Assembly (NCBI GenBank): GCA_017416805.1
Contig: JAFQBB010000009.1
Coordinates: 1 to 33,611 of the forward strand
Source of the DNA: Bacteroidaceae bacterium
GTDB taxonomy: Bacteria > Bacteroidota > Bacteroidia > Bacteroidales > Bacteroidaceae
Direction of reading: 5' to 3'
DNA: 33,611 nt
This document shows positions 1,203 through 25,467 of the stretch, piece by piece. Each line of letters starts with the position of its first letter. The first letter of the stretch is position 1. The translations under genes were made by a program, and so were the position numbers. The notes below the pieces were generated by a model, which saw only the letters and a program-made list of their open reading frames with translations, was not told the origin of the DNA and did no database searches.

Positions 1203-1309
1203 AGGTGGGTTCTATAAATTTGCTTTGTCGGATAAACCCCGATTTTCCGACAAAAAGATTAAAGCGCTCACCATCGTTAATAATCTGTGGGAATTTATAG
1301 AACCCACCT
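1203..1309. repeat. E1 inverted-repeat element, copy A (107 bp, short form)
   Basis: The ends are perfect inverted repeats: AGGTGGGTTCTATAAATT at 1203-1220 and its complement at 1292-1309. The element is flanked by AA on both sides (1201-1202 and 1310-1311). It lacks about 87 bp of interior found in the 194-bp copies, including the central GTGTAGC-GG-GCTACAC hairpin. It lies between the HAD gene and ribF. Confidence 0.85.
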
Positions 1310-1922
1310 AAAGTTCAAAGAGCTTTCTCCAATCCTCGCCCGGTGCAGGCTGGTAGGTCTGCAGGCCGAGCGTACGGGCAGTCTGGCAATTGGCCGCAGC
1401 GTCGTCAATGAAGAGAGTCTCTTCGGGAAGTATGCCCGTTTCGGCAATTACTGTGCGGAAGATGTCTGCTCCCGGTTTGGTCTGATGCAATTCGTAGGAG
1501 AGGAATATGCGGTCGAAATAGTCCTTTACCTTCCATCCGTTGTGAGGGAAGAAGTCAGAGGCTGCATGTTGCCAATGCACTTCGTTGGTGTTGCTCAGCA
1601 GGTAGATAGGGTAGTGGTTGCGCAGTTCCATCAGTGCTTCCAGTTTCCATGTGGGTATGCCCACGAGGAAAAGATTCCAGGCCTGCCATATTTCTGCATC
1701 GTTAGCCGGGCAGCCGGTCTGTCGGCGCACCTCATTGCAAAAGTCGGCAGGAGTGATAGCACCCTCTTCCAGCATGGCAAAAATCCCTTGCTGGCAATAG
1801 GCATCAATCATTCCGGCAGCTTGCGGGAAGCCTATGCGGGCGAAAGCCTCGAGGCAACGGGGCTTGTCCAACTCCACCAAAACGCCTCCGAAATCGAATA
1901 TCAGGTTCTTTATTTTATGCAT
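1308..1922 (-). CDS. HAD superfamily (subfamily IA) phosphatase
   Basis: This is a haloacid-dehalogenase-type hydrolase of about 204 residues, probably a small-molecule phosphatase of the YihX-like group; the substrate cannot be read from sequence. Motif I is FDFGGVL near residue 10 with the nucleophile Asp, motif II is LLSNT, motif III is the Lys of TKPGADIF, and motif IV is FIDDAAAN. ATG at 1922 is preferred over the in-frame GTG just before it. A TATCTTTG -7 element on the minus strand (1943-1950) lies about 20 bp upstream. The last two bases of the TAG stop belong to the E1 element, so the insertion may have set or altered the C-terminus. Confidence 0.9.
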   Translation of the reverse strand: MHKIKNLIFDFGGVLVELDKPRCLEAFARIGFPQAAGMIDAYCQQGIFAMLEEGAITPADFCNEVRRQTGCPANDAEIWQAWNLFLVGIPTWKLEALMELRNHYPIYLLSNTNEVHWQHAASDFFPHNGWKVKDYFDRIFLSYELHQTKPGADIFRTVIAETGILPEETLFIDDAAANCQTARTLGLQTYQPAPGEDWRKLFEL

Positions 1923-1942
1923 CACAGATTCTATTATGTCTG

Positions 1943-1950
1943 CAAAGATA
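1943..1950 (-). promoter_or_regulatory. Putative -7 element of the HAD gene
   Basis: TATCTTTG on the minus strand matches the Bacteroides -7 consensus TANNTTTG and is well placed before the HAD start. No matching TTTG was found 19-21 bp further upstream, so this is a partial promoter call. Confidence 0.5.
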
Positions 1951-2002
1951 CGGCATTTTGATTGATTTGAATGAATGTGACTTCCAAAAAAAATGTAATT
2001 TG

Positions 2003-2034
2003 TTTGCGTATGTCACCAATAAGCTGTATCTTTG
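2003..2034 (+). promoter_or_regulatory. Promoter of the CAT-anticodon tRNA
   Basis: TTTG at 2003-2006, 20 bp of spacing and TATCTTTG at 2027-2034 match the Bacteroides -33/-7 promoter. Initiation would fall near 2041, giving a short leader before the tRNA at 2065. It is divergent from the HAD promoter. Confidence 0.8.
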
Positions 2035-2064
2035 CAGAGCAAATCCGAACAAAGGGTTGTGCAC

Positions 2065-2138
2065 GGGCTTTTAGCTCAGTTGGTTAGAGCAACAGACTCA
2101 TAATCTGGAGGTCCTTGGTTCAAGCCCAAGATGGCCCA
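2065..2138 (+). tRNA. tRNA with CAT anticodon (elongator Met, or Ile2 with lysidine)
   Basis: The cloverleaf can be traced by hand. The acceptor arm pairs GGGCTTT with ATGGCCC (one T-T mismatch). The D stem is GCTC/GAGC, the anticodon loop is CTCATAA with CAT at 2099-2101, and the T arm is CTTGG-TTCAAGC-CCAAG. The discriminator is A, followed by CC then T, so the full CCA is not encoded. CAT can mean initiator Met, elongator Met or, after C34 modification by TilS, Ile2. The normal G1-C72 pair argues against initiator Met. Choosing between Met and Ile2 needs comparison with the other CAT tRNAs of the genome. Confidence 0.93.
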
Positions 2139-2150
2139 CCTCGAAAAAGA

Positions 2151-2189
2151 GAAAGCGGAGTTGTATTAAAGCAGCTCCGCTTTCTTTTT
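2151..2189 (+). terminator. Intrinsic terminator of the tRNA gene
   Basis: A 13-bp stem (2151-2163 pairing with 2172-2184, one G-T wobble) with an 8-base loop is followed by five T. It sits 12 bp after the tRNA. Confidence 0.9.
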
Positions 2190-2230
2190 GGCAAGGAGTT
2201 TGGCCTCAAGAATCGAATTTGGGAGTCAAA

Positions 2231-2379
2231 CTCCTTAGGGGCTTTAAGATTTTTAGGGACCTTAAGGACTTTAAGGACCTTAGGGACTTTAGGGACTTTA
2301 GGGACTTTAGGACCTTGAACCTTGAGCTTTGAGTTTTGACCTTTGAACCTTGAACCTTGAACCTTTGAGCCTTGAACCA
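2231..2379. repeat. Low-complexity GGGACTTTA / CCTTGAA tandem repeats
   Basis: About 150 bp of degenerate 8-10 bp units, first GGGACTTTA/AGGACTTTA and then GAACCTTGA/CCTTTGA. Related tracts occur near 8800-8840, 12060-12085, 3795-3815 and 25010-25182, always between genes. No gene lies between the tRNA terminator and the start at 2441; TACCC-CTCTGA-GGGTA at about 2413-2428 is a small hairpin just upstream of that start. Confidence 0.8.
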
Positions 2380-2440
2380 GCAATGGATAATCTGTTAAAA
2401 TAAATAATGTGTACCCCTCTGAGGGTAATCTGACATAGGT

Positions 2441-3658
2441 ATGAAGAGTATAAGACTGACAGGAAAGACATTGGCTTTTATCCGTGAACATGCAGCGGAC
2501 AATGTGCAAACTTTGGCTTTGCGTGCTTCCCGCTTTCCGGATGTGGAGATGGCTACGGCTATCCGTCAGATAGCGGCCAGGCAGGCTGCGCGTGTCAAGT
2601 TGCCGACGTGGTGGGCTACGGAAGGGGTGTATTACCCCAATCACTTGCCAATGGAACAATGCTCGTCGGAGGTGACGGCCCGCTACAAGTCTTCTCTGAT
2701 TCCTGAAGAATTGAGGCAGGGTGGTATGCTGACTGACCTTTCGGGTGGGTTCGGGGTCGATTTTGCCTGTATGGCAAAGGGCTTTGCGGGTGCTACTTAT
2801 GTGGAGCGTCAGGAAGAACTCTGTGTGTTGGCTGTCCACAACTTGCCTTTGTTGGGCATTTCCAATGCGCGGGTGATGAATATGGATGCAGTGGAATACC
2901 TGAAGGGGATGTCCCGGCAGACAGTTATTTTCATTGACCCCGCCCGACGTGACCTCAAAGGGAAAAAGAAGGTGGCAATCAACGATTGCGAACCGAACGT
3001 GGCCCGTCTGCATGACTTGTTGGTGGAGAAAGCGGATAGGGTTATTGTGAAACTGTCACCTATGCTGGATATCGCTCAGGCAATGGATGTGCTGCCATGT
3101 GTCCGCGAGGTGCATGTGGTGGCAGTGGGTGGCGAGTGTAAGGAACTGCTGTTGGTGATGGAGCAGGATGCCCATTCGGCCGATGCCCGTATTGTCTGTA
3201 CCAACCTGCCGGTAGCTGTTCCGGAAGAATGGCCTGAGCCATTTGTCTTTACCCGTCAGGAGGAGGAAGAGGCAGATTGTCCGTTGGCCGAAAGGTTGGA
3301 TGCCTATCTTTACGAACCCGACTCAACGCTTTTGAAAGCCGGTGCTTTCCGTATGGTGGCTCTCCGTTACGGATTGAAGAAGTTGCATCCGAACAGTCAT
3401 CTTTATACCAGTGAAAAGTTGGTGACGGATTTCCCCGGGCGCTGTTTCCGGGTGATTGACAGTGGCGGATTTGCGAAGCACGAGGTGAAATATCTTCAAG
3501 GATACGGAAGTAAGATGAACCTGACAGTGCGTAATTTCCCATCGACTGTGGCCGACCTGCGCAAACGCCTGAAACTCACGGATGGAGGAGATGATTACCT
3601 CTTTGCCACTACCTTATCCAATGGCGGAAAACGTTGGGTCTTATGCCGGAAGGTATAA
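2441..3658 (+). CDS. THUMP-like class I SAM-dependent methyltransferase
   Basis: This 405-residue protein has a Rossmann methyltransferase core. The SAM-binding motif I is LTDLSGGFGVDF near residues 97-108, and the catalytic-loop motif is IDPARR near residue 165. The C-terminal 100 residues resemble the THUMP-like domain found beside such methyltransferases in Bacteroidetes. The likely substrate is a nucleic acid base, probably RNA, but neither the target nor the modified position can be read here. It is a single gene with no obvious partner. A degenerate repeat tract lies upstream, and no -33/-7 promoter was recognised. Confidence 0.85.
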   Translation: MKSIRLTGKTLAFIREHAADNVQTLALRASRFPDVEMATAIRQIAARQAARVKLPTWWATEGVYYPNHLPMEQCSSEVTARYKSSLIPEELRQGGMLTDLSGGFGVDFACMAKGFAGATYVERQEELCVLAVHNLPLLGISNARVMNMDAVEYLKGMSRQTVIFIDPARRDLKGKKKVAINDCEPNVARLHDLLVEKADRVIVKLSPMLDIAQAMDVLPCVREVHVVAVGGECKELLLVMEQDAHSADARIVCTNLPVAVPEEWPEPFVFTRQEEEEADCPLAERLDAYLYEPDSTLLKAGAFRMVALRYGLKKLHPNSHLYTSEKLVTDFPGRCFRVIDSGGFAKHEVKYLQGYGSKMNLTVRNFPSTVADLRKRLKLTDGGDDYLFATTLSNGGKRWVLCRKV

Positions 3659-3870
3659 ATAGGAATTAGTTCGAGCAAAGTTCCTGTCAGCTTCGCAGTT
3701 GCCCCTCCCCTCCGACTCCTCTTGAGGGGAAAACAGGATAACTCAAAACTCAATCCCCGGGCACCCACAAGGGATGTCCCTACAGAGGGACGGCACTCCT
3801 TTCACCTTTCACCTTGAACTTTAGAACTCACAACTCATAACTCATAATTCATAATTCATAATTCAAAATA
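3659..3870. repeat. Gene-free spacer with several short repeats
   Basis: This 212-bp spacer holds a CCCCTC / GAGGGG hairpin (about 3708-3730), the second copy of the GGGCACCCACAAGGG repeat (3759-3783), CCTTGAA-like units and a tandem ATAATTCATA tract (about 3837-3866) that runs up to the next start. No gene was seen. Confidence 0.65.
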
Positions 3871-4824
3871 GTGGATACATTATTACTTATAGCAGGCTTG
3901 CTGCTTATTTTGTGGGGAGCCAATGCGCTGACTGATGGCGCTGCATCGGTGGCCAAGCGGTTCAATATTTCCAATCTGGTGATAGGCCTTACGATTGTGG
4001 CCCTTGGAACTTCGGCACCGGAGTTTGTAATCAGTTTATTGTCTTCCTTGAGCGGTAGCGCCGGGTTGGCTATCGGTAATGTGGTGGGAAGCAATATCTT
4101 TAATACCCTGATGATTGTGGGGTGTACGGCCATTGTGGCCCCTATCCCCATAGGTAAAGGAACATTGGCCAAGGAGATACCGCTGTGTGTGCTTTCAGCT
4201 TTGATGCTTCTTGTTTGTGCCAATGATATCTTGCTTGATGGTGGGGCTGCTAATGTCATCAGCCGTACGGACGGATTGATGTTGCTCGGCTTTTTTGCCA
4301 TTTTTATGGGCTATACTTTTGCCATTGCCAAGAATGGCGATGGAGAAGAGGGTGGTGAGATACGCAGTCTTCCCATGTGGAAGTCTGTCCTTTTTATCTT
4401 GTTGGGGCTTGGAGCACTCATTGGTGGCGGGCAACTCTTTGTCAATGGTGCATCGGGTATTGCCCGCTCATTGGGCGTGAGCGAGTCTGTCATCGGCTTG
4501 ACTCTGGTTGCCGGTGGTACATCGCTTCCCGAATTGGCCACATCTGTTTCGGCAGCACTGAAGAAGAATCCCGGTATAGCTATCGGTAATGTCATTGGCA
4601 GTAACCTGTTCAATGCATTTGCCGTGTTGGGGGCCAGTGCCACTATCAATGATTTGCCTTTGGGCGGCATCACGAACTTTGATTTCACGACACTTGTTGT
4701 GGCCAGTCTGTTGCTCTGGGTCGTAGGTTTCTTCATGGGCCGTCGCATCATTACGCGTCCTGAAGGTATCTTATTGGTGGCTTGTTATGTGGCATATACC
4801 ACTTACCTGATAATGCAACAGTAA
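3871..4824 (+). CDS. Calcium/sodium antiporter (CaCA family, YrbG-like)
   Basis: This 317-residue inner-membrane exchanger is predicted to swap Na+ (or H+) for Ca2+. The two inverted alpha repeats that line the ion path are clear: GTSAPEFVISL followed by GNVVGSNIFN in the first half, and GTSLPELATS followed by GNVIGSNLFN in the second. About ten hydrophobic segments are visible. The start is GTG at 3871, directly after an ATAATTCATA tandem repeat. The acidic residues of both repeats are intact, so it should be functional. Ion preference cannot be settled from sequence. Confidence 0.93.
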   Translation: MDTLLLIAGLLLILWGANALTDGAASVAKRFNISNLVIGLTIVALGTSAPEFVISLLSSLSGSAGLAIGNVVGSNIFNTLMIVGCTAIVAPIPIGKGTLAKEIPLCVLSALMLLVCANDILLDGGAANVISRTDGLMLLGFFAIFMGYTFAIAKNGDGEEGGEIRSLPMWKSVLFILLGLGALIGGGQLFVNGASGIARSLGVSESVIGLTLVAGGTSLPELATSVSAALKKNPGIAIGNVIGSNLFNAFAVLGASATINDLPLGGITNFDFTTLVVASLLLWVVGFFMGRRIITRPEGILLVACYVAYTTYLIMQQ

Positions 4825-4844
4825 GACAATTACCAGCCTTGGTT

Positions 4845-4932
4845 ACTGCCAACGTCTTGGCAACCTTCTGCCAATGTTGTGGCAGTCTTTTGTCAATACC
4901 GTGGCAGAGTCCTGCCAATACTATGGCAGAGA
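4845..4932. repeat. Four tandem 22-bp palindromic units (TGCCA-N6-TGGCA)
   Basis: Units at 4845-4866, 4867-4888, 4889-4910 and 4911-4932 are each exactly 22 bp. Each carries an inverted repeat close to TGCCA-N6-TGGCA; unit 3 has TGTCA on its left. The spacer bases vary while the arms stay, as expected for protein-binding sites or small hairpins. The array lies after the antiporter gene and about 105 bp before the next start. Confidence 0.8.
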
Positions 4933-5037
4933 TGGGAGAAGGAATGAAAAGAGGTTAAAGGAGTGTATGTGATTCAAAAAAAAGCGTTAACTTTACCGCG
5001 GAAAAGCATTTGGGCGGAAGCCGTGGTGTTTTTGTAA

Positions 5038-6183
5038 ATGAAAACTGAAATGGTAACTATAAAGAAAGTAACGACGAAAAAGGAACTGAAGACCTTTATC
5101 CGTTTCAACTACGAACTGTACAAAGGTAATCCCTATTCCGTACCCGATTTGTACGACGATATGCTGGCCACCTTCGATAGCAAGAAGAATCCGGCCTTTG
5201 AGTTTTGCGAAGCAGACTATTTCCTTGCGCACAATGAAAAAGGAGAAGTGGTGGGCCGTGTGGCTGCCATCATCAACCACCGCAGTAACGAAACGTGGGG
5301 GACGAAGAATGTCCGCTTCGGGTGGATAGACTTTGTGGATGATGAGGAGGTGAGCTGTTCCTTATTGGATGCGGTGGCGGCTTGGGGTAAAGAACGAGGC
5401 ATGACGGCCATGCATGGCCCCTTGGGATTTACCGACCTGGATGCCGAAGGTATGCTTGTCGAGGGATTTGAGCACCTGAGTACCATGGCTACCATCTATA
5501 ATTATCCCTATTACCAGAAGCACGTGGAGCAATACGGCATGGAGAAGGATGCTGATTGGGTGGAGTTCAAAATCAATATTCCTGATGGTATTCCTGACAA
5601 GATGCGGCGCATTGCCGACCTTATCAGCCGGAAGTACGGCCTTCATGTGAAGAAACTGAAGGATATGAAGGAGGTGAAAGCCGGGAACTACGGACAGAAA
5701 ATCTTTGACCTCATCAACGAGGCATATTCACCCTTGTACGGATATTCGCGCATGAGCCAACGGCAGATTGACCAGTACGTGGATACCTATCTGCCAATCC
5801 TTGACTTGCGGATGGTGACCTTGGTGGAGGATGCCGAAGATAATCTGGTGGCGGTAGGTGTTTCCATGCCTTCTATGTCGAAAGCCTTGCAGAAGGCAAA
5901 GGGAAAGATGCTCCCCTTTGGGTGGTGGCACCTGTTGAAAGCCTTGAAATGGGGACGCCCTCAGACGCTTGACCTGATGCTGGTGGGAGTGAAACCAGAA
6001 TATCAGAGCAAAGGGGTGAACTCGTTGCTCTTTACCGACCTGATTCCCGTATATCAGTCATTGGGCTTCAAAGATGCCGAGAGTAATCCTGAACTGGAGA
6101 CCAACAACAAGGTGCAGGCCCAGTGGGAATATTTCGACACCACCCTGCACAAGCGGAGAAGAGCGTATAAGAAGAGTATATAA
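5038..6183 (+). CDS. GNAT-like N-acetyltransferase family protein of unknown substrate
   Basis: This is a 381-residue soluble protein. The N-terminal half (FIRFNYELYKGNPYSVPDL, then EVVGRVAAIINH) and the C-terminal half (LMLVGVKPEYQSKGVNSLLF) both resemble acetyltransferase folds; the second includes a weak acetyl-CoA loop (QSKGVN). It belongs to a widespread but uncharacterised family, so no substrate is proposed. ATG at 5038 is used; a second in-frame ATG at 5050 is possible. A four-unit palindromic repeat array lies about 105 bp upstream. Confidence 0.75.
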   Translation: MKTEMVTIKKVTTKKELKTFIRFNYELYKGNPYSVPDLYDDMLATFDSKKNPAFEFCEADYFLAHNEKGEVVGRVAAIINHRSNETWGTKNVRFGWIDFVDDEEVSCSLLDAVAAWGKERGMTAMHGPLGFTDLDAEGMLVEGFEHLSTMATIYNYPYYQKHVEQYGMEKDADWVEFKINIPDGIPDKMRRIADLISRKYGLHVKKLKDMKEVKAGNYGQKIFDLINEAYSPLYGYSRMSQRQIDQYVDTYLPILDLRMVTLVEDAEDNLVAVGVSMPSMSKALQKAKGKMLPFGWWHLLKALKWGRPQTLDLMLVGVKPEYQSKGVNSLLFTDLIPVYQSLGFKDAESNPELETNNKVQAQWEYFDTTLHKRRRAYKKSI

Positions 6184-6195
6184 GTGACGAGTGAT

Positions 6196-6262
6196 GAGCT
6201 ACAAGCTGCAAGTGGTTAAACTTGTTTTCCAACGGGTCACAAGTAGCTCGTAGCTTGTAACT
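6196..6262. repeat. Intergenic inverted repeat upstream of parE
   Basis: GCTACAAGCTGCAAGT-like sequence near 6199 pairs imperfectly with AGCTCGTAGCTTGTAAC near 6245. A related and better-paired copy lies just after parE at 8241-8297, so parE is bracketed by two copies of the same hairpin family. Confidence 0.65.
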
Positions 6263-6277
6263 AAAAACTGAAATATA

Positions 6278-8230
6278 ATGGAAGAACTCAACCTTAACCT
6301 GAACCCTGAAACTCCCATGGTGGAGTATAACGAAGAGAACATCCGTCACCTGAGCGATATGGATCATGTGCGTACCCGCCCCGGTATGTATATTGGAAAG
6401 TTAGGCGATGGAAGTCATAGCGACGATGGTATCTATGTCCTGCTGAAAGAGGTCATCGACAATAGTATCGATGAGTTCAAGATGAATGCCGGCAAACGTA
6501 TTGAAATTGACATTGACGAGAATCTGCGCGTCAGTGTGCGTGACTATGGTCGGGGTATTCCTCAAGGCAAAATGATTGAGGCGGTCAGCGTGTTGAACAC
6601 GGGAGGCAAGTATGACAGCAAAGCCTTTAAGAAGAGTGTCGGACTGAACGGTGTGGGTGTGAAGGCCGTAAATGCTTTGAGCAGCCGTTTTGAGGTGCGC
6701 AGTTATAGAGACGGTCAGGTACGATGTGCCACTTTTGAGAAGGGGGTATTGCAGAGTGATACTACTGAACCCACTCAGGACGAGAACGGTACCTACATCT
6801 TCTTTGAACCTGACAACACTCTGTTCAAGAACTATAGCTACCGACAGGAGACGGTGGATACCATGTTGCGCAATTATACTTACCTGAATACCGGACTTGC
6901 CATTGTCTATAATGGTCGTCGCCTCATTTCGCGCAACGGGCTGATGGATCTCCTCAAGGACAGGATGACTGCCGGGGAACTCTATCCCATCATACACCTG
7001 CATGGCGAGGATATAGAGATAGCATTTACGCATACCAATCAGAATGGTGAGGAGTATTACTCCTTCGTCAACGGACAATATACTCCGCTGGGAGGTACGC
7101 ATCAAAGTGCCTTCAAGGAGCATATAGCACGCACCATCAAGGAGTTCTATAACAAGAATCATGAATATGGTGATATCAGAAACGGTATTGTGGCCGCTAT
7201 TGCCTTGAATGTGGAGGAGCCTGTATTTGAGAGCCAGACAAAGGTGAAACTCGGTTCGCCCACCATGTCGCCCGAAGGGGTAAGTGTGAACAAGTATGTG
7301 GGTGACTTTGTAAAACAAGAGGTGGACAACTACCTGCACAAGAATGCAGATGTGGCAGATGTAATGCTGCAGAAGATTACCGAGTCGGAAAAAGAACGAA
7401 AGGCCATAGCCGGTGTCACCAAGCTGGCCCGCGAGCGTGCCAAGAAGGCGAATCTGCACAACCGCAAGTTGCGTGATTGCCGCATCCACCTTAACGATAC
7501 GAAGGGAGAGAACCGTCAGGAGAGCAGTATCTTTATCACTGAGGGAGACTCGGCCAGCGGTTCCATTACCAAGAGTCGCGATGTAAATACACAAGCTGTG
7601 TTCAGCCTGCGCGGTAAGCCACTGAACACCTTTGGACTGACCAAGAAGGTGGTCTATGAGAACGAGGAGTTCAACCTGTTGCAGGCGGCGCTTAATATTG
7701 AAGATGGCATTGACGGTTTGCGCTACAACAAGGTGATTATTGCTACCGATGCCGATGTGGATGGTATGCATATCCGTCTGCTGATGATTACCTTCTTCCT
7801 GCAGTTCTTCCCCGACCTCATCAAGAAGGGGCATGTCTATATCCTGCAGACTCCCCTTTTCCGTGTGCGTAACAAGCGGAGCAAGATAAAGAAGAAGGCC
7901 GCGAGTGACGAATTGCAGGCTGTCAATGAGAAGGGAGGAAAGAGCAGTGACTTCATTACCCGTTATTGTTACAGCGAGGAGGAACGCGTAGCTGCCATTG
8001 AGGCGCTTGGTCCTGATCCTGAGATTACCCGATTCAAAGGACTTGGTGAGATTTCGCCCGATGAGTTCAAGAATTTCATAGGCCCTGAAATAAGGCTGGA
8101 GCAGGTATCGCTCCGCAAGAACGACTTGGTGGATGACCTGTTGGCTTTCTATATGGGAAAGAATACCATGGAGCGTCAAGGTTTCATCATTGACAACCTG
8201 GTGGTAGAGGAAGACAGGGCGGAAGAGTAA
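6278..8230 (+). CDS. parE: DNA topoisomerase IV subunit B
   Basis: ParE is the ATPase subunit of type IIA topoisomerase IV, which decatenates daughter chromosomes. The 650 residues contain a GHKL ATPase domain ([31 protein letters not shown]), a transducer domain and a TOPRIM domain. In the TOPRIM the metal ligands are Glu422 (EGDSASGS) and Asp491 (DADVDGMH). The EGDSASGS and DADVDGMH variants, instead of the more GyrB-like EGDSAGGS and DADGSH, together with the [10 protein letters not shown] stretch, favour ParE over GyrB. Its neighbours coaD and the S41 protease follow on the same strand. The long open frame on the opposite strand (6401-8179) is a codon-use shadow. Confidence 0.93.
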
Positions 8231-8240
8231 ACAGTGATGA

Positions 8241-8297
8241 GCTACAAGCTACAAGTAACAGCGTTTGTTTTTCGGATGTTCACTTGTAGCCTGTAGC
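8241..8297. repeat. Intergenic inverted repeat between parE and coaD
   Basis: GCTACAAGCTACAAGT (8241-8256) pairs with ACTTGTAGCCTGTAGC (8282-8297) at 15 of 16 positions around a 25-base loop. It begins about 10 bp after the parE stop and ends about 20 bp before coaD, and could act as an RNA hairpin in a parE-coaD transcript. Confidence 0.75.
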
Positions 8298-8318
8298 TTG
8301 TAACTAAGAACTAAATAT

Positions 8319-8777
8319 ATGAAACGAGCTATATTTCCCGGGACATTTGATCCCTTTACTACCGGCCATGCCAGCATTGTGAGGCGGGCACTCACCTTCA
8401 TGGATGAGATTATTATTGGTATTGGTGTGAACGAGAAGAAGCGTACTGTATTGCCTACGGAGAAGCGCTTGAAGATGGTGCGTGACTACTATGCCGATGA
8501 ACCTCGTATCCGTGTGGAGGCGTATAGTGACCTTACCATTGACTTTGCCCGTAGGATGGAGGCTTGCTTCATCATCCGTGGTATCCGTTCGGTGAAGGAC
8601 TTCGAGTATGAGGAGAGCATTGCCGACATCAACCGCCAGTTGGCCGGGCTGGAGACTGTCCTGCTCTTCACCGAGCCGGAACTGACCAATATCAGTTCCA
8701 GTGTGGTGCGCGAACTGATGAGCTATGGCAAGGATGTTACACCGTTCTTGCCTGAAGGTATGAAGTTGGAGGACTGA
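8319..8777 (+). CDS. coaD: Phosphopantetheine adenylyltransferase
   Basis: CoaD transfers AMP from ATP to 4'-phosphopantetheine, the next-to-last step of coenzyme A synthesis. At 152 residues it is close to the family's 155-165. The nucleotidyltransferase motif TTGH is at residues 14-17 after the FPGTFDP strand. The C-terminal [13 protein letters not shown] motif that binds ATP is also intact. It lies 88 bp after parE, with the inverted repeat between them. Confidence 0.96.
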
Positions 8778-13161: not shown

Positions 13162-13189
13162 CAAAAGTAGGAAAACTTTTGTATTTTTG
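13162..13189. promoter_or_regulatory. Divergent -7 elements between the VanZ-family and NSS transporter genes
   Basis: TACTTTTG on the minus strand (13162-13169) faces the VanZ-family gene, and TATTTTTG on the plus strand (13182-13189) faces the transporter. Neither has a good TTTG at the expected -33 position, so both calls are tentative. Confidence 0.45.
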
Positions 13190-13210
13190 CGGCATCAAAA
13201 TAATAATTTG

Positions 13211-13404
13211 AGGTGGGTTCTATAAATTCGCTTTGTCGGAAAATCGAGGTTTAGCCGAGATATTTTTGTCAGTCGTAGAGGAAGTGTAGCGGGCTACACG
13301 ACCGATACGAGTGGCAAAAAGAGCCGGATAAAGCCGATTTGGCGGCAAAAAGATTAAAGCACTCACCATCGTTAATAATCTGTGGGAATTTATAGAACCC
13401 ACCT
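13211..13404 (+). repeat. E1 inverted-repeat element, copy B (194 bp)
   Basis: The 18-bp terminal inverted repeats lie at 13211-13228 and 13387-13404, and TG flanks both sides (13209-13210, 13405-13406). The interior is an imperfect palindrome centred on GTGTAGC-GG-GCTACAC (13284-13299). It lies downstream of the tentative transporter promoter, within its long leader. Confidence 0.9.
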
Positions 13405-15662: not shown

Positions 15663-15961
15663 AATGAGTTAAGGTGGGTTCTATAAATTCGCTTTATTCG
15701 CCATCGCTCATCGAAAACCTCTTTTGATTCTTTCATTAAGGTATGGTGTCGGAAAATCGAGGTTTAGCCGAGATATTTTTGTCAGTCGTAGAGGAAGTGT
15801 AGCGGGCTACACGACCGATACGAGTGGCAAAAAGAGCCGGATAAAGCCGATTTATTCGCTATCGCTCATCGAAAACCTTTTTTTGATTCATTCATTAAGG
15901 TGTATGGTGGCGGCAAAAAGATTAAAGTACTCACCATCGTTAATAATCTGTGGGAATGGGG

Positions 15962-16104
15962 CTGTGTCAAAAATGCCACCATTTAATTCTTTATCCGCAG
16001 ATTGCGCAGATGACGCAGATAAATTATAACCTATAGGGTATAATAGGAAAGAATAATCTGCGTCATCTGCGCAATCTGCGGATGAAAAGTGAATTATGAC
16101 ACAG
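15962..16104 (+). repeat. E2 palindromic element, copy 3
   Basis: This is the most complete copy, from CTGTGTCA (15962) to TGACACAG (16097-16104), so the ends are perfect 8-bp inverted repeats. The interior matches copy 2 almost base for base. It is inserted where the right end of E1-C should continue. Confidence 0.9.
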
Positions 16105-16128
16105 TCTCATTAGTTTCTATGTTTATTC

Positions 16129-16282
16129 AGGTTGGTTCTCTGCTTGGATGCTTTGCTTGTCTTTTTGGCCTTTTTCTTCTTATTTTCTTGATACGTAGCC
16201 CGCTACGCATCTTCGCAGATAAGAAGAAAAAATCTCAAAAATCCGAAGCAAATCCTCTCAAGCGAATTTATAGAACCCATCT
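16129..16282 (-). repeat. E1-related hairpin element (E1')
   Basis: This 154-bp element has ends AGGTTGGTTCT (16129) and TATAGAACCCATCT (to 16282). Its two T/A-rich arms pair around CGTAGC-CC-GCTACG (16194-16207), so the central GTAGC/GCTAC hairpin is shared with E1 while most of the arm sequence differs. Confidence 0.72.
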
Positions 16283-17806: not shown

Positions 17807-17828
17807 GAATGTTGTTTGTTAATTTCTG

Positions 17829-17921: not shown

Positions 17922-17939
17922 TACCCAAAATCTGAGTTT

Positions 17940-18746
17940 ATGACAGATAAGAACAGTATAGAGGAAATTCAGGACAATGTGCCCGTAGGGACAGAAGAGC
18001 GTATGGTGCTCCGTTCGGAAGGGTTGGTCAAGCGCTATGGAAAACGCACGGTGGTGAACCATGCTTCGTTCAATGTGAGACAAGGTGAGATTGTAGGATT
18101 GCTCGGTCCTAATGGTGCGGGTAAGACTACATCATTTTATATGACTACCGGTTTGGTGGTGGCCAATGAGGGACGTATATTCCTGAATGATTTGGAGATA
18201 ACGAAATTTCCGGTATATAAACGTGCCCAACATGGCATTGCCTATCTGGCGCAGGAAAACAGCATCTTCCGAAAGATGAGTGTCGAGGACAACATCGCTT
18301 CGGTGCTGGAAATGACACCAACCACCAAAGAATATCAAAAAGAGAAGCTGGAAAGCCTGATTGCAGAGTTTCGCCTTCAGAAAGTCCGCAAGAATCTTGG
18401 CGACCAGTTGTCGGGTGGCGAAAGACGACGGACGGAGATTGCACGTTGTCTGGCTATCGACCCTAAATTCATTATGCTGGACGAACCGTTTGCCGGGGTG
18501 GACCCTATTGCTGTTGAGGATATCCAGCACATTGTGTGGAAGTTGAAAGACAAGAATATAGGAATCCTCATTACTGACCACAACGTGGGCGAGACACTCA
18601 GCATTACGGACCGTGCGTATATGCTGTTTGAGGGTAAGATCTTGTTTCAAGGTTCGCCCGAAGAGTTGGCCGAGAATCCTGTAGTACGGGCAAAATACCT
18701 CAGCAATAGTTTCGTGTTGCGTCGTAAGGATTTCCAGCAGAACTAA
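17940..18746 (+). CDS. lptB: LPS export ABC transporter ATPase
   Basis: LptB powers extraction of lipopolysaccharide from the inner membrane together with LptF and LptG. From ATG 17940 it has 268 residues. Walker A is GPNGAGKT (55-62), the Q-loop lies in YLAQENSIF, the signature is LSGGERRR and the Walker B/D-loop region is IMLDEPFAGVDP. The family-typical ITDHNVGETL follows. Compared with E. coli LptB it has an extra charged N-terminus of about 20 residues. It is divergent from mlaE; both act in outer-membrane lipid supply. No LptF/G/C gene is nearby. Confidence 0.94.
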   Translation: MTDKNSIEEIQDNVPVGTEERMVLRSEGLVKRYGKRTVVNHASFNVRQGEIVGLLGPNGAGKTTSFYMTTGLVVANEGRIFLNDLEITKFPVYKRAQHGIAYLAQENSIFRKMSVEDNIASVLEMTPTTKEYQKEKLESLIAEFRLQKVRKNLGDQLSGGERRRTEIARCLAIDPKFIMLDEPFAGVDPIAVEDIQHIVWKLKDKNIGILITDHNVGETLSITDRAYMLFEGKILFQGSPEELAENPVVRAKYLSNSFVLRRKDFQQN

Positions 18747-18780
18747 GAGGCCGTTTTTATTGACTTTTTCTCTTAGTAAA

Positions 18781-18840
18781 GATCCGTATCTTGGTGTACA
18801 AAGAACCGTATCTTCAAGCCGTAAGAACCGTATCTTCAAG
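18781..18840. repeat. Three direct repeats with a 22-bp period (CCGTATCTT)
   Basis: GATCCGTATCTT at 18781, GAACCGTATCTTCAAG at 18803 and the same 16 bases at 18825 are spaced exactly 22 bp apart. They lie about 35-95 bp after the lptB stop, in a 510-bp gene-free stretch before tig. Confidence 0.75.
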
Positions 18841-18905
18841 TGAATCCGAAGGCAGACTTGACACACTTTCAACTTGGGTAAAGACAAGCTGTGGGTGATG
18901 AGCTG

Positions 18906-19043
18906 CTTGCCGCCAAGCCGCCTATATACGTGAAATGTATATACGCGTGTGGGCGCGAGAATTTGAGAAATTTAACAGTTTCATTCTCGCGCCCACACGC
19001 GCGTATCACAATTATTACGTATTATAGGCGGCTCGGCGGCAAG
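18906..19043. repeat. 138-bp inverted repeat upstream of tig
   Basis: The outer arms are CTTGCCGCC (18906-18914) and GGCGGCAAG (19035-19043). The inner core CGCGTGTGGGCGCGAGAAT (18944-18962) is matched perfectly by its complement at 18983-19001 around a 20-base loop. Between them the arms pair with a few bulges (AGCCGCCTATA / TATAGGCGGCT). It is far richer in GC than its surroundings. Confidence 0.85.
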
Positions 19044-19136
19044 GTTCAATACGGTTTGTGAATGTGAATGATGGTGTAAATTTGGCAGGAATAACTCATA
19101 AAGATATTGTAATTTAGGACTTTTTTGTCTGTTGAG

Positions 19137-19167
19137 TTTGTAAATTGAAAGATTAATACTAATTTTG
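19137..19167 (+). promoter_or_regulatory. tig promoter
   Basis: TTTG at 19137-19140, 19 bp of spacing and TAATTTTG at 19160-19167 match the Bacteroides promoter. The leader of about 80 bp carries a perfect 8-bp hairpin, GGATAGAG (19181-19188) with CTCTATCC (19193-19200). Confidence 0.85.
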
Positions 19168-19256
19168 CACCCTCAATTCGGGATAGAGTCCTCTCTATCC
19201 GGGAAATTATGGAGTAAGAATAATTAATAAATTCATTAAAAATAAAACTGTCAGAA

Positions 19257-20606
19257 ATGAATATTTCATTGCAAAACGTTGACAAGGTGAGCGCAAAGCT
19301 TACAGTACAGCTTGAGAAAGCTGATTATCAGGAGAAAGTAGAAAAGGCTCTGAAGACATTCCGTCAGAAGGCCAATATGCCGGGATTCCGTCCGGGTATG
19401 GTCCCCATGGGCATCATAAAGAAGCAGTATGGTACAGCTGTAAAGGCTGAAGAGGTAAATAAACTCTTGCAGGAGAAGGTTTATGAATACTTGAGAGAGA
19501 ATAAGGTGAATATGTTGGGCGAACCTCTCCCGGTTGAAAATCAATCTATCGATATTGTTGCACAGGATGATATCGAATTTGTGTTTGATATTGCGTTGGC
19601 TCCGGAGTTTGAAGTGGCGTTGGGTAGCAATGATACTATACCCTATTATAATGTGGATGTAAATGACGAACTCGTAGAGCGTCAGGTAAGCATGTACACT
19701 CAGCGTGCCGGTAAGTATGAGAAAGTTGACTCATATCAGGACAATGACATGTTGAAGGGTCTTCTGGCTGAGCTTGATGAAAACGGAAGTACCAAAGAAG
19801 GTGGTATTCAGGTAGAGGGTGCCGTAATGATGCCTTCATACATGAAGAATGACGATCAGAAGGCCGTGTTTGCCAATGCCAAGGTAAACGATGTGCTTGT
19901 GTTCAATCCCAATGCCGCTTATGACGGAAGTGAGGTTGAATTGGCTTCATTGCTGAAAATTCAGAAAGAAGAAGTTGCTGCTCATGCCGGCAATTTCAGT
20001 TTCCAAGTAGAAGAGATTACTCGCTTTGTATCCGCAGAACTTTCACAAGAGATTTTTGACCAGGTGTTTGGCGAAGGTGTAGTGAAGAGTGAAGAGGAAT
20101 TCCGCAGCAAAGTGAAGGAATCACTGCAGGCTCAGTTTACTCCCGATAGCGATTATAAGTTCCTGTTGGATGTACGCGAGTATCTTACAAACAAGATTGG
20201 TAAGTTGGAATTCCCCGATGCATTGCTCAAACGCATCATGCTGATGAACAATGAAGAGAAAGGTGAGGAGTTCGTAAACGAAAACTACGATAAGAGCATT
20301 GAAGAACTTACATGGCATCTCATCAAGGAGGAACTTGTCAACCAGAATGAAATCAAGATTGACAATGATGATGTGATGAACATGGCTAAGGGGGCAACAC
20401 GTGCCCAGTTCGCTCAGTACGGCATGATGAATGTGCCCGAAGAGATGTTGGAAAACTATGCCAAGGAGATGTTGAAGAAGAAAGAAAGTGTGGATGGTTT
20501 GGTGAACCGTGCTATCGAGGCCAAACTCTCGGCAGCCTTGAAGGGAAAGGTTTCTTTGGATGAGAAAACTGTCTCTTTGGACGAATTCAACAAAATGTTT
20601 CAATAA
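19257..20606 (+). CDS. tig: Trigger factor (ribosome-associated chaperone)
   Basis: Trigger factor binds ribosomal protein L23 at the exit tunnel and shields nascent chains. The 449 residues begin with the ribosome-binding domain and its signature (FRPGMVPMGIIKKQYG, near residues 45-60). A central region follows in the place of the FKBP-type prolyl isomerase domain, but the usual active-site stretch is not recognisable, so isomerase activity is doubtful. The C-terminal part is a long helical chaperone domain. tig, clpP and clpX lie in the order common in bacteria, linking folding with proteolysis. Confidence 0.95.
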   Translation: MNISLQNVDKVSAKLTVQLEKADYQEKVEKALKTFRQKANMPGFRPGMVPMGIIKKQYGTAVKAEEVNKLLQEKVYEYLRENKVNMLGEPLPVENQSIDIVAQDDIEFVFDIALAPEFEVALGSNDTIPYYNVDVNDELVERQVSMYTQRAGKYEKVDSYQDNDMLKGLLAELDENGSTKEGGIQVEGAVMMPSYMKNDDQKAVFANAKVNDVLVFNPNAAYDGSEVELASLLKIQKEEVAAHAGNFSFQVEEITRFVSAELSQEIFDQVFGEGVVKSEEEFRSKVKESLQAQFTPDSDYKFLLDVREYLTNKIGKLEFPDALLKRIMLMNNEEKGEEFVNENYDKSIEELTWHLIKEELVNQNEIKIDNDDVMNMAKGATRAQFAQYGMMNVPEEMLENYAKEMLKKKESVDGLVNRAIEAKLSAALKGKVSLDEKTVSLDEFNKMFQ

Positions 20607-20611
20607 AGAAA

Positions 20612-20627
20612 TAGCAATTAATTGCTA
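20612..20627. repeat. Perfect 16-bp palindrome after tig
   Basis: TAGCAATTAATTGCTA is fully self-complementary. It begins 6 bp after the tig stop and could be a protein-binding site or the base of a hairpin. Confidence 0.6.
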
Positions 20628-20640
20628 AAACTTCCTAAAA

Positions 20641-20707
20641 GGGAGGCTTCGGGCTTGTTTTTTTTGTATTTTTGCTTTGCTAAAATACAAGATGCCCGGT
20701 GCCTCCC
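20641..20707 (+). promoter_or_regulatory. Long hairpin carrying the clpP -7 element
   Basis: GGGAGGCTTCGGGC (20641-20654) pairs with GCCCGGTGCCTCCC (20694-20707) at 12 of 14 positions. Inside, TTGTATTTT and AAAATACAA form a perfect 9-bp stem. TATTTTTG at 20667-20674, a good -7 element, lies on the left arm of the inner stem, and initiation near 20681 would fall on the right half. The left arm followed by a T run may also end tig transcripts. Confidence 0.6.
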
Positions 20708-20759
20708 TTGGTTTTAGGGTGTAAAAGGGTAAAAAGTTGAATGAATAAAGATTAGGAAT

Positions 20760-21428
20760 ATGATGGATGACTTTAGAAAGTATGCTACTAAACACTTGGG
20801 GATGAACAGTATGGTCCTTGATGATGTGATTCGTTCGCAAGGCGGTTATTTGAATCCTTATATATTGGAAGAGCGTCAGCTGAACGTGACCCAGTTGGAT
20901 GTGTTTTCACGGTTAATGATGGACCGTATCATTTTTTTGGGTACTCAAGTTGATGATTATACTGCCAACACATTGCAGGCCCAGCTCCTTTATCTGGATT
21001 CCGTAGAGCCGGGCAAGGATATCTCCATTTATATCAATTCTCCTGGCGGTTCTGTCTATGCCGGGTTGGGAATTTATGATACAATGCAATTCATCAACAG
21101 CGATGTCGCCACTATTTGTACAGGTATGGCCGCTTCGATGGCTGCTGTATTATTGGTGGCAGGAGCAGAAGGAAAACGTGCGGCACTTCCTCATTCACGT
21201 GTGATGATTCACCAGCCGATGGGAGGAGCACAAGGACAAGCTTCTGATATAGAGATTACAGCCCGTGAGATTCAGAAATTGAAAAAAGAACTCTACACGA
21301 TTATTGCTGACCACTCTCATACGGAATTTGATAAAGTATGGGCGGATTCTGATCGTGATTATTGGATGACAGCAGTAGAGGCAAAAGAATATGGCATGAT
21401 TGATAGCGTATTGTCGCGCAAAGGATAA
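20760..21428 (+). CDS. clpP: ATP-dependent Clp protease proteolytic subunit
   Basis: ClpP forms the barrel-shaped serine protease that works with ClpX. It has 222 residues, about 20-25 more than many ClpP proteins because of a longer N-terminus. The catalytic triad is complete: Ser126 in GMAASMAA, His151 in MIHQPMGG and Asp200 in DRDYWM, with spacing identical to E. coli ClpP. ATG 20760 is immediately followed by a second ATG. clpX starts 3 bp after its stop, so they are one operon. The -7 element lies inside the hairpin upstream. Confidence 0.96.
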   Translation: MMDDFRKYATKHLGMNSMVLDDVIRSQGGYLNPYILEERQLNVTQLDVFSRLMMDRIIFLGTQVDDYTANTLQAQLLYLDSVEPGKDISIYINSPGGSVYAGLGIYDTMQFINSDVATICTGMAASMAAVLLVAGAEGKRAALPHSRVMIHQPMGGAQGQASDIEITAREIQKLKKELYTIIADHSHTEFDKVWADSDRDYWMTAVEAKEYGMIDSVLSRKG

Positions 21429-21431
21429 GGT

Positions 21432-22670
21432 ATGGCAGGAAAGGTAAAAAGAAAATGTAGTTTTTGTGGCCGGACGGATAGTGAAGTGGCACTTCTTATT
21501 ACGGGTGTAGATGGATTCATCTGTAACGAATGTGCCGAACAGGCTGTAGAAATCACACGGGAATATTTGCGCGATACAGGGAAGAAAAAACTGGAGGACA
21601 GGAAAAAAAATCTTCCCAAACCTAAGGAAATAAAATCGTTTCTTGACCAGTATGTCATAGGTCAGGACGATGCCAAACGTTTCTTGTCGGTTTCTGTATA
21701 TAACCACTATAAACGTTTGATGCAAGCGGACAGTGCAGATGAAGTTGAGATTGAAAAGTCCAACATCATTATGGTGGGAAGTACCGGTACCGGAAAAACC
21801 CTATTGGCGCGTACTATTGCGAAATTGCTCGATGTACCCTTCACGATTGTGGATGCTACGGTCTTGACCGAAGCGGGTTATGTGGGCGAAGATATAGAAA
21901 GTATATTGACCCGTTTGTTGCAGGTCGCTGATTATAATGTGGCCGAAGCGGAAAAGGGAATAGTATTTATTGATGAGATAGATAAGATTGCCCGTAAGAG
22001 TGACAATCCGTCTATCACCCGTGATGTCAGTGGAGAAGGTGTTCAACAGGGCTTGTTGAAACTCTTGGAAGGCTCTGTGGTGAATGTTCCTCCTCAAGGA
22101 GGGCGTAAGCATCCTGACCAAAAGATGATACCTGTCAATACAAAAAACATCTTGTTCATCTGTGGAGGAGCTTTTGACGGCATAGAAAAGAAAATCGCCC
22201 AACGGTTGAATACTCATGTCGTGGGTTACAATGCGGTAAATAATGTGAGCAAGATTGACAAGTCCAATATGATGCAATATATAGCACCGCAAGACTTGAA
22301 AGCTTTCGGACTGATTCCAGAAATTATAGGCCGTTTGCCCGTGCTCACCTATTTGAATCCGTTGGATCGGGATGCATTGCGCAGTATCCTGACAGAACCG
22401 AAGAACTCCATCATCAAGCAGTATGTCAAGCTGTTTGAAATGGATGGTATCTCTTTGACTTTCCAATCCGAAGTGTTCGAATATGTCGTGGACAAGGCTG
22501 TCGAGTACAAACTGGGCGCTCGTGGGTTGCGTTCGATAGTGGAGACAATCATGATGGATGTCATGTTTGAACTACCCTCTTCAGAAGGAGCAAAGAGCTA
22601 TGAAGTGACGCTTGATTATGCAAAAGCGCAATTGGGGAAGGCGAATATGTCGCGGTTGCAGAATGCATAA
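21432..22670 (+). CDS. clpX: ATP-dependent Clp protease ATP-binding subunit
   Basis: ClpX unfolds tagged proteins and threads them into ClpP. It has 412 residues. The N-terminal zinc-binding domain has four cysteines (CSFC starting at residue 9, then CNEC). The AAA+ module shows Walker A GSTGTGKT, Walker [12 protein letters not shown], and the pore loop GYVGEDIE. The C-terminal sensor region [10 protein letters not shown] is present. It starts 3 bp after clpP. No transfer or damage is seen. Confidence 0.96.
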
Positions 22671-22749
22671 AAGAGGTGAAAATGTATCTTTCTTCGTTTT
22701 TTTTCAAAAAAAATAAGAAGAAAACTATGGATATATGAGAACTTGTTTG

Positions 22750-22757
22750 TAATTTTG
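22750..22757 (+). promoter_or_regulatory. Putative -7 element of recQ
   Basis: TAATTTTG matches TANNTTTG about 65 bp before the preferred recQ start. No good -33 TTTG is seen. Upstream, CTTC-T8-A8-GAAG (about 22695-22725) can form an A/T hairpin that may end clpX transcripts. Confidence 0.5.
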
Positions 22758-22821
22758 TTCTTCAGCTACATCCCGAAGAGTTGTGGAGCGATGCAAAAAC
22801 ACTAATAAATCCTATTTTCGT

Positions 22822-25002
22822 ATGGCAGAGAAAATGATTTTGACGAACTGTTTGAAAAAGTATTTCGGCTTTGATACCTTTAAAGGAGATCAGGAGGCCA
22901 TTATCCGTAACCTGCTTGATGGTAATGACACCTTTGTCCTGATGCCTACAGGAGGTGGCAAGTCGTTGTGCTACCAGCTTCCATCTCTTCTTATGGATGG
23001 GGTCGCCATTGTCATATCCCCACTGATTGCTTTGATGAAGAATCAGGTAGATGCTATGCGTAATATGAGTGAAGAAGATGGCTTGGCCCATTTCATAAAC
23101 TCTTCGTTGAACAAGTCTGCCATAGATTTGGTCAAGGCTGATATTATGAGCGGCAGGACCAAGTTGCTGTATGTGGCTCCAGAGTCACTGACGAAAGAAG
23201 AGAATGTGGAATTTCTCCGTTCTATAAAGATTTCGTTTTATGCGGTGGATGAGGCACATTGCATATCGGAATGGGGGCATGATTTCCGTCCCGAATATCG
23301 CCGTATCCGTCCCATTATCAATGAAATCGGAAAGGCTCCTTTGATAGCCCTTACCGCAACTGCAACAGACAAGGTGAGGACGGACATCAAGAAAAATTTG
23401 GGAATGATTGATGCTAAGGAGTTCAAGTCTTCTTTCAATCGGTCGAATCTGTACTATGAAGTGCGCCCCAAAACGAAAAATGTCGATAAGGATATCATAA
23501 AATATATCAAAGCCAATCCTGGAAAATCAGGAATCATTTATTGCTTGAGCAGGAAAAAGGTTGAAGAACTGGCCGAAGTCCTTCAAGCTAATGACATCAA
23601 TGCCCGTGCTTATCATGCGGGAATGGATTCTGTGACTCGTACAACTACGCAGGACGATTTCTTGATGGAGAAGATAGATGTGATAGTTGCCACGATAGCT
23701 TTTGGTATGGGTATTGACAAGCCTGATGTGCGTTATGTTATCCATTATGATGTACCTAAAAGCCTTGAAGGATACTATCAGGAGACAGGGCGTGCCGGTC
23801 GCGATGGAGGCGAGGGTGTCTGTCTGGCATTCTATTCAAATAAAGACCTTCAGAAACTTGAAAAGTTTATGGAGGGGAAACCTGTAGCCGAACAGGATAT
23901 TGGCCGCCAACTATTGCAGGAAACTGCTGCTTATGCTGAATCTTCTGTATGTCGCCGGAAATTGTTATTGCACTATTTTGGCGAAATTTATACGGAAGAA
24001 AATTGTGGAAATTGTGACAACTGTTTAAATCCTAAGAAACAAGTGGAAGCAAAGGAATCATTGTGTACAGTGATAGAGACTATCCTGTCAGTAAAAGAAA
24101 ATTTCAAAACTGAATATATTATAAATGTGTTGATGGGCAAAGAGACAACGGAAGTCTTGGCTCAGAAACATGACGAACTTGAACTTTTCGGAGTAGGATC
24201 AAGCGAAGAGGACAAGTTTTGGAATGCCGTTATCCGCCAGGCATTGATAGCGGGGTATCTGCGTAAAGACGTAGAGAGTTATGGATTGTTGAAAGTTACT
24301 CCTGAGGGACATAAATTCTTGAAGTCTCCCAAGTCTTTCAAAATTACAGAAGATAACGAATTTAATGAGGAAGAGGAAGACACTCCGGTACGTGGCGGTG
24401 GTTCGTGTGCTGTGGATCCGGCTTTGTACTCTATGCTGAAGGATTTGCGTAAGAAGCTATCCAAACAACTTGAGGTTCCTCCTTATGTCATTTTCCAGGA
24501 TCCGTCGTTGGAGGCCATGGCTACTATTTATCCCGTCACATTGGAGGAATTGCAGAATATTCCTGGTGTTGGAGCCGGTAAGGCCAAACGTTATGGCGAG
24601 GAGTTCTGTCGGCTTATCAAACGTCATTGCGAAGAAAACGAAATTGAACGTCCGGAGGATTTGAGAGTGCGTACTGTGGCAAACAAGTCCAAATTGAAAG
24701 TGTCCATTATCCAGAGCATAGACCGCAAAGTGGCTCTTGATGATATTGCTATGGCGAAAGGAATTGACTTTTGTGACCTGTTGGATGAAATAGAGGCCAT
24801 AGTCTATTCCGGCACCAAATTGAACATAGACTATTTCCTCGATGAGGTAATGGACGAAGATCATTTGGACGACATCTACGAATACTTCAAGGAGTCAACC
24901 ACAGACAGTCTGGACGAGGCAATTGACGAATTGGGCGATGACTACACTGAGGATGAAATCCGCCTTGTGCGCATCAAGTTCATTTCCGAAATGGCAAACT
25001 GA
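22822..25002 (+). CDS. recQ: ATP-dependent DNA helicase RecQ
   Basis: RecQ is a 3'-5' DNA helicase used in recombination repair. From ATG 22822 it has 726 residues; an in-frame ATG at 22783 would add 13 residues unlike RecQ, so the inner start is preferred. Walker A is MPTGGGKS (41-48), the DEAH box is at 143-146 followed by CISEWGHDFRPEYR, and the helicase C-terminal motif is QETGRAGRDG. The RQC zinc site has Cys377, Cys395, Cys398 and Cys401. An HRDC domain follows (LRKKLSKQLEVPPYVIFQD). The roughly 120 residues after it are acidic and of unknown role. Confidence 0.94.
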   Translation: MAEKMILTNCLKKYFGFDTFKGDQEAIIRNLLDGNDTFVLMPTGGGKSLCYQLPSLLMDGVAIVISPLIALMKNQVDAMRNMSEEDGLAHFINSSLNKSAIDLVKADIMSGRTKLLYVAPESLTKEENVEFLRSIKISFYAVDEAHCISEWGHDFRPEYRRIRPIINEIGKAPLIALTATATDKVRTDIKKNLGMIDAKEFKSSFNRSNLYYEVRPKTKNVDKDIIKYIKANPGKSGIIYCLSRKKVEELAEVLQANDINARAYHAGMDSVTRTTTQDDFLMEKIDVIVATIAFGMGIDKPDVRYVIHYDVPKSLEGYYQETGRAGRDGGEGVCLAFYSNKDLQKLEKFMEGKPVAEQDIGRQLLQETAAYAESSVCRRKLLLHYFGEIYTEENCGNCDNCLNPKKQVEAKESLCTVIETILSVKENFKTEYIINVLMGKETTEVLAQKHDELELFGVGSSEEDKFWNAVIRQALIAGYLRKDVESYGLLKVTPEGHKFLKSPKSFKITEDNEFNEEEEDTPVRGGGSCAVDPALYSMLKDLRKKLSKQLEVPPYVIFQDPSLEAMATIYPVTLEELQNIPGVGAGKAKRYGEEFCRLIKRHCEENEIERPEDLRVRTVANKSKLKVSIIQSIDRKVALDDIAMAKGIDFCDLLDEIEAIVYSGTKLNIDYFLDEVMDEDHLDDIYEYFKESTTDSLDEAIDELGDDYTEDEIRLVRIKFISEMAN

Positions 25003-25009
25003 TATATTG

Positions 25010-25182
25010 AAGGTTTAGGGCTTAGGGCTTAAGGTTCAAGGTTTAAAGTTCAAGGTTTAAGGTTTAAGGTTTAAGGTTTAAAAGCACTTTTTTTGAACCT
25101 TGAACCTTGAGCCCTTTTTTGAACCTTGAACCTTGAACCTTGAGCCTTTTTTTGAACCTTAAACTTTGAACCTTGAACCTTT
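25010..25182. repeat. AAGGTTTA / CCTTGAA tandem repeats forming a long foldback
   Basis: The first part is a tandem of AAGGTTTA and AAGGTTCA units and the second a tandem of GAACCTTGA units broken by T7 runs. The halves are roughly complementary, so the transcript can fold back on itself just after recQ and end in T runs, which would make it a terminator-like structure. Confidence 0.75.
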
Positions 25183-25225
25183 TATTAAGAATCCGTGCCT
25201 AAATTTATTGTTTTCTTCCGCTTTC

Positions 25226-25257
25226 TTTGTGCAAATTCAAGAAAATGCGTAAATTTG
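25226..25257 (+). promoter_or_regulatory. guaB promoter
   Basis: TTTG at 25226-25229, 20 bp of spacing and TAAATTTG at 25250-25257 match the Bacteroides promoter. Initiation near 25264 puts the whole E1 copy D inside a guaB leader of about 220 bp. Confidence 0.85.
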
Positions 25258-25273
25258 CACGCAATAAATTTTA

Positions 25274-25467
25274 AGGTGGGTTCTATAAATTCGCTTTGTC
25301 GGAAAATCGGGGTTTAGCCGAGATGTTTTTGTCAGTCGTAGAGGAAGTGTAGCGGGCTACACGACCGAGATGAGTGGCAAAAATAGCCGGATAAAGCCGA
25401 TTTGGCGGCAAAAAGATTAAAGCACTCACCATCGTTAATAATCTGTGGGAATTTATAGAACCCACCT
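25274..25467 (+). repeat. E1 inverted-repeat element, copy D (194 bp)
   Basis: The terminal repeats are at 25274-25291 and 25450-25467, and TA flanks both sides (25272-25273, 25468-25469). It is nearly identical to copy B and the same length. It lies between the guaB promoter and the guaB start, 16 bp before the ATG. Confidence 0.92.

Follow-up and report, generated by a model that had tools for sequence, protein, structure and literature searches.

The insertion sequences IS1168 and IS1169 encode a transposase of about 355 amino acids between two unlike ends of the GG....TTCTATMAATT form, and in Bacteroides this end type adjoins resistance genes, as indicated by a published table (PMC9330008) and by plasmid records. 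In the same bacterial order as these insertion sequences and the repeats described below, MITE239 and MITE700 of Porphyromonas gingivalis are gene-less miniature inverted-repeat transposable elements (MITEs) whose ends match those of ISPg3, an insertion sequence of the IS5 family (PMC4596501). Here we examine a repeat called E1 in a stretch of 33,611 bp (the window) from contig JAFQBB010000009.1 of a Bacteroidaceae bacterium (assembly GCA_017416805.1). We consider it very probable that E1 is a non-autonomous, MITE-like element moved in trans by a transposase of the IS1168/IS1169 group, that its insertion duplicates 4 bp at TNNA targets, and that its copies shrink to 23-bp scars. A repeat family of gut Bacteroidaceae is thereby tied to the IS1168/IS1169 end type.

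E1 shares with IS1168 and IS1169 the form of its ends, one IS1168 end departing from it at a single base of 17, and a 4-bp duplication, which is present in three of the seven copies of these insertion sequences that were read. It differs from them in having no transposase and, in the window copies, two nearly identical ends. A MITE239/MITE700-type end such as ACGTGAGTTCGATATAAAGGAA is similar in layout to that of E1; the end sequence and the host are different, and the excerpted material contains no 23-bp derivative (PMC4596501). Since the ends of MITE239 and MITE700 match ISPg3, E1 fits a pattern that is already known in the order, and apart from its scars it is an ordinary kind of element. 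Our literature search returned no description of the E1 repeat family, and a text search for the letters of its end was likewise empty.

Copies, borders and target sites

A preliminary description of the window had reported four copies with 18-bp inverted ends and 2-bp target duplications. When the window was scanned with the 18-bp end pattern AGGTGGGTTCTATAAATT, eight sites were found at up to three mismatches, where shuffling leads to an expectation of 0.02, and they lie exactly where the ends of the four copies had been placed; seven are exact and the eighth (16265-16282) has one mismatch. The copies, all on the forward strand, occupy positions 1204..1308 (105 bp including both 17-bp ends), 13212..13403 (192 bp), 15673..16281 (609 bp, a mosaic) and 25275..25466 (192 bp). 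The first of these (107 bp with its outer A and T counted) is an internal deletion that has lost most of the interior and sits 14 bp upstream of a minus-strand open reading frame (ORF) of 313 amino acids (248..1189), while the last ends 17 bp upstream of the ATG at 25484 of a 492-aa ORF, which we take to be guaB. Five copies of 194 bp (outer A and T counted) were compared and are 2 to 16 bases apart. The interiors appear to be gene-less, as had been proposed for all but the composite copy: none of the four mechanically called ORFs that overlap the elements has a Pfam match over the cut-off (best E 0.086).

The dinucleotides AA, TG, TA and TA flank the four copies as reported. The inverted ends and the duplication thus stand, but their lengths do not: the end of E1 is 17 bp long (GGTGGGTTCTATAAATT) and the duplication 4 bp, and the values of 18 bp and 2 bp result from counting the outer A and T of the target as part of the element. 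The 4 bp outside the 17-bp ends are identical on both sides of every window copy, namely TAAA, TTGA, TTAA and TTAA in the order given above; for the copy upstream of guaB the two TTAA sequences are at 25271..25274 and 25467..25470. We extended this comparison to 32 paired elements from several genomes, defined by ends of GGTGGG, GGGAGG or GGGGTG plus TTCTATAAATT with at most two mismatches each; among them are a false pair of 687 bp, L086, whose real element is a 23-bp form, and L117, an element of 30 bp from another genus. The 4-bp flanks are identical in 22 pairs, whereas shuffled pairings give a mean of 9.3 matches and none of 10,000 reaches 22. Ten of the 13 pairs without TTAA on either side still match over 4 bp. 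The insertion target is TNNA, mostly TTAA.

One alternative is that the ends are indeed 18 bp long and A/T-terminated, that the duplication is 2 bp, and that the responsible transposase belongs to a different family. The match of the dinucleotides at all four window copies agrees with it, as does the failure to find an IS1168-type transposase in the genus, and the empty site described below fits both readings, because TNN|A..T|NNA and TNNA|..|TNNA leave the same sequence when the element is absent. However, the base beyond the dinucleotide is nearly always T at the left and A at the right of the paired elements, as a TNNA target predicts. In addition, two insertion sequences with related ends, L174 (TAAT/TAAT) and L249 (TTAT/TTAT), have an outer base other than A, and it is for this reason that we read the duplication as 4 bp rather than 2 bp. 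We therefore regard the 2-bp alternative as unlikely.

The preliminary description had proposed comparison with orthologous sites lacking the element, where a single copy of the target should be seen. Of 17 tabulated sites, the joined flanks of 14 were searched for in 10 of the 14 relatives within the genus, and 9 of these sites, 13211 not among them, were then aligned. The guaB site found a match in eight genomes, six of which were aligned; E1 is absent from all six. In place of the window's TTAA-E1-TTAA, five have a single TTAA and the sixth has TTCA. Relatives without the element were also present for 1203, C46:307450, C27, C6 and part of C61, five sites at which the target had diverged or could not be aligned; at three others (15672, C10, C20) the alignment was unusable.

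The family extends well beyond the four window copies. The host genome, 91% complete at 3.16 Mb in 64 contigs, holds 38 ends at up to two mismatches, compared to 0 for the reversed control pattern, and a BLAST search with the 25274 copy gave 21 matches, some of which are pieces of one element. The 18-bp end occurs within two mismatches in 56 of 200 relatives; the reversed control also matches in some of these, so that single matches are weak, and clear clusters of ends are seen in G103 (16+22) and G133 (14+10). A second subfamily, E1b, has AGGGAGG ends, and a 2.9-Mb contig of another genus (G116) carries elements with AGGGGTG ends and a central hairpin, TAGCGGGCTA in three of them (L140, L141, L144) and TAGTGGGCTA in L143. 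In the named genome collection, a 28-bp piece of E1 is matched exactly by three stretches, which belong to two Bacteroidaceae metagenome-assembled genomes from sheep rectum. The 194-bp element was not matched in plasmid and phage collections at blastn sensitivity. Among 73 element loci seven orthologous pairs passed the filter and three were viewed; one of these, upstream of the 313-aa ORF, has an E1b-type end in G011.

Two further observations concern the structure and surroundings of these elements. MITE families from two genera share the central hairpin core TAGCGGGCTA while differing in their arms; in the window this core is at 13284-13299, 15797-15812 and 25347-25362. Several elements, E1 copies or short forms, have another dispersed inverted repeat of the GCGGATTACGCGGATT type beside them, in the flanks of L028, L030 and L023.

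Relationship to IS1168 and IS1169

The link to described insertion sequences came by way of contig-end repeats in other Bacteroidales, which led to Bacteroides plasmids with the same end type. There it belongs to IS1168 and IS1169, both annotated as IS5-like. The IS1168 ends, GGTGGGTTCTATCAATT and GGGGACTTCTATAAATT, differ from the E1 end at 1 and 3 of 17 bases, a resemblance and not an identity, and those of IS1169 are GGTGAGTTCTATCAATT and GAGGAGTTCTATAAATT. The two transposases are 78% identical, both contain PF01609 and PF05598, and both score above the IS5-family model NF033581. The three copies of this group with 4-bp duplications are L174 (TAAT), L249 (TTAT) and L250 (TAAA). Relatives at 60-79% identity have TTCTAT-containing ends where these are readable (L249, L250, L252); no end was found for L251, a relative at 62%. 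Judged by its ends, E1 resembles elements of the IS1168/IS1169 group of the IS5 family, and we infer from the same ends that the helper transposase would come from this group.

Two other candidate sources were considered and rejected. IS5 relatives at 31-35% identity, as far as their ends were readable (L253, L254, L256, L257, L261), have GAGACCT-type ends unlike those of E1, one side of L254 reading AAGACCT. In the host genome PF01609 gives one short match (25 bits, cut-off 23) in a 129-aa frame at C63:55567, away from E1 ends.

E1 has terminal inverted repeats, a target duplication, several copies without a transposase gene and an empty orthologous site, as expected of a MITE. The proposal of a non-autonomous, MITE-like element is upheld in these respects; its other part, a transposase encoded elsewhere, has no counterpart found in the genus. 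Since no matching transposase was found in the same genome, we describe E1 as a MITE with IS1168-like ends and not as a member of IS5. A full-length element combining a transposase with the same ends, which the preliminary description had suggested looking for, was not found in this genus. Copies at or near contig ends in G103, G057, G072, G127, G084, G040 and G024 gave no full partner element, and a loose end scan of the loci with weak matches to the IS5_4 model (see below) gave only single sites with three mismatches and no pair. Within the family, an IS1168-type protein query matches 12 of 301 genomes at E <= 1e-20.

The 23-bp forms

Near-precise excision of Tn10- and Tn5-type elements proceeds by deletion between short direct repeats within the inverted ends and leaves a small palindromic remnant. 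Those events were obtained under laboratory selection, whereas what look like E1 scars are read from natural MITE copies. Forms of 23-24 bp occur at ten places in four genomes: at C61:75297, C6:130333, C18:13704, C18:50905, C33:55409 (diverged) and C20:41116 (E1b type) in G000, on C169 (the same place as C18:50905) and C198 in G002, on C113 in G012, and on C53 (diverged) in G005. The opening and the closing 40 bases of the 25274 copy have a single maximal direct repeat of 5-9 bp in common, CCCAC, and a deletion between its two copies yields exactly the 23-bp palindrome GGTGGGTTCTATAAATTCCCACC. This palindrome is present without mismatch at C61:75297 and with one or two mismatches (of 25) at six more places. 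Intermediate lengths of 43, 73, 74, 79, 82 and 105 bp also exist. At the level of sequence, the 23-bp palindromes that match the CCCAC deletion product are what is new here; they complete a natural series from the full element to the 23-bp form with a predictable deletion junction.

The simplest reading is that the 23-bp forms are scars of near-precise excision by slippage, which is what they look like. An IS1168/IS1169-group transposase of the IS5 family, supplied in trans, would recognize both 17-bp ends of E1, and insertion at TNNA targets, mostly TTAA, would duplicate 4 bp. The gene-less copies, with their near-perfect fold-back, would then shrink through internal deletion. As a last step, a slip between the two CCCAC repeats, of which one is in the inner portion of the right end and the other at the outermost part of the left end, would leave the 23-bp palindrome at the old target. 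In this scheme the ends, the 4-bp duplication, the one clean empty site, the copy number, the fold, the run of shorter forms and the precise junction are observations, whereas which transposase acts, movement in trans and the scar origin of the 23-bp forms are inferences.

Alternatively, the 23-bp palindromes could be mobile units that insert themselves. Four genomes carry them at several sites unrelated to one another, and the 4 bp on either side agree in three of the ten (C6:130333 with TTAA, C20:41116 with TTGA, and C169 of G002 with TTAA). G005 lacks the form found at C61:75297; identity over the joined flanks is 95%, and the length agrees within one base. Against this, they have one full end only, their sequence is exactly the product of one CCCAC slip in E1, and the intermediate lengths exist. 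Moreover, in one viewed orthologous pair the form upstream of the gene is 45 bp in G002 vs 25 bp in G000 (outer A and T counted), in the same direction and at a similar distance to the start codon within a poorly conserved spacer; another viewed pair has a short form in both genomes. Independent mobility of these palindromes is accordingly quite improbable. Only a slim chance is given to the broader idea that GGTGGGTTCTATAAATTCCCACC, which has one transposase end plus a 6-bp mirror, can move by itself, or else that the CCCAC architecture of E1 has been selected for self-removal with a harmless scar; if the former were true, a mobile 23-bp palindrome would be among the smallest DNA transposons.

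Several observations weigh against our preferred interpretation of E1 as a MITE that is mobilized by an IS1168/IS1169-group transposase and decays into scars. Identical 4-bp flanks are missing from 10 of the 32 pairs (six differ at one position and four at two), from four of the seven copies of the IS1168/IS1169 group (L172, L173, L175 and the truncated L252), and from 7 of the 10 short forms, which fits old scars and is weaker than the record of the full copies. An empty site that is clean at base level is available only at guaB. No IS1168-like transposase was detected at E <= 1e-5 in 15 genomes of the genus, many of them incomplete drafts, and the IS5_4 model NF033581 gave weak matches in 6 of these 15 and none over the cut-off.

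Fold, promoter-like boxes and the mosaic copy

Around GTGTAGC-GG-GCTACAC the 194-bp copies fold back over almost their whole length, in agreement with the preliminary description, with z scores of -9.9 as RNA (25274 copy) and -11.5 as DNA (13211 copy). The motif TAnnTTTG is a promoter motif of Bacteroides. The guaB copy starts 17 bp past a TAAATTTG box (25240-25275) and the 13211 copy 22 bp past TATTTTTG (13175-13212), both of which fit this motif, and the two copies may therefore be part of the transcribed 5' leader of genes, as their position suggests. Inward TAnnTTTG boxes lie within 45 bp in 10 of 45 rows; among intergenic TNNA sites taken as controls the figure is 70 of 694 (P about 0.01 in a post hoc comparison without correction). 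The 45 rows represent 44 distinct sites, with L086 counted twice and L027 listed at the wrong size. Eight of the ten inward boxes are 10-28 bp from one side. Outward boxes are found in 4 of 45 rows vs 97 of 694 control sites. We treat the enrichment of promoter-like boxes near E1 as a lead and not as a result. The very good fold of E1 and its copies just downstream of such boxes would also suit a regulatory hairpin or a conserved structured RNA that is not mobile, but this reading is very unlikely given the empty guaB site in relatives, the identical flanks in 22 of 32 pairs, and a search of the window at the Rfam gathering threshold that found no family except a tRNA.

The copy at 15673..16281 (611 bp with outer A and T counted) is a mosaic of E1, a third palindrome and E1b, with TTAA on both sides. 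Its E1 part (15673..15957, forward strand, mosaic positions 1-286) has matched pieces that are 95-100% identical and, at two points, an inserted module of about 51-54 bp. The third palindromic repeat lies at 15959..16108 with approximate borders (mosaic positions about 288-437) and has the ends GGGGCTGTGTCA / TGACACAGTCTC; mosaic positions 319-415 are self-complementary, and an inner TCCGCAGATTGCGCAGATGACGCAGAT inverted repeat is also found within 15959-16108. The E1b part (16109..16277, forward strand, mosaic positions 438-606) is 89% identical to the E1b copy in L030. Elsewhere in the window, a tRNA gene is located at 2065-2138 (Rfam RF00005).

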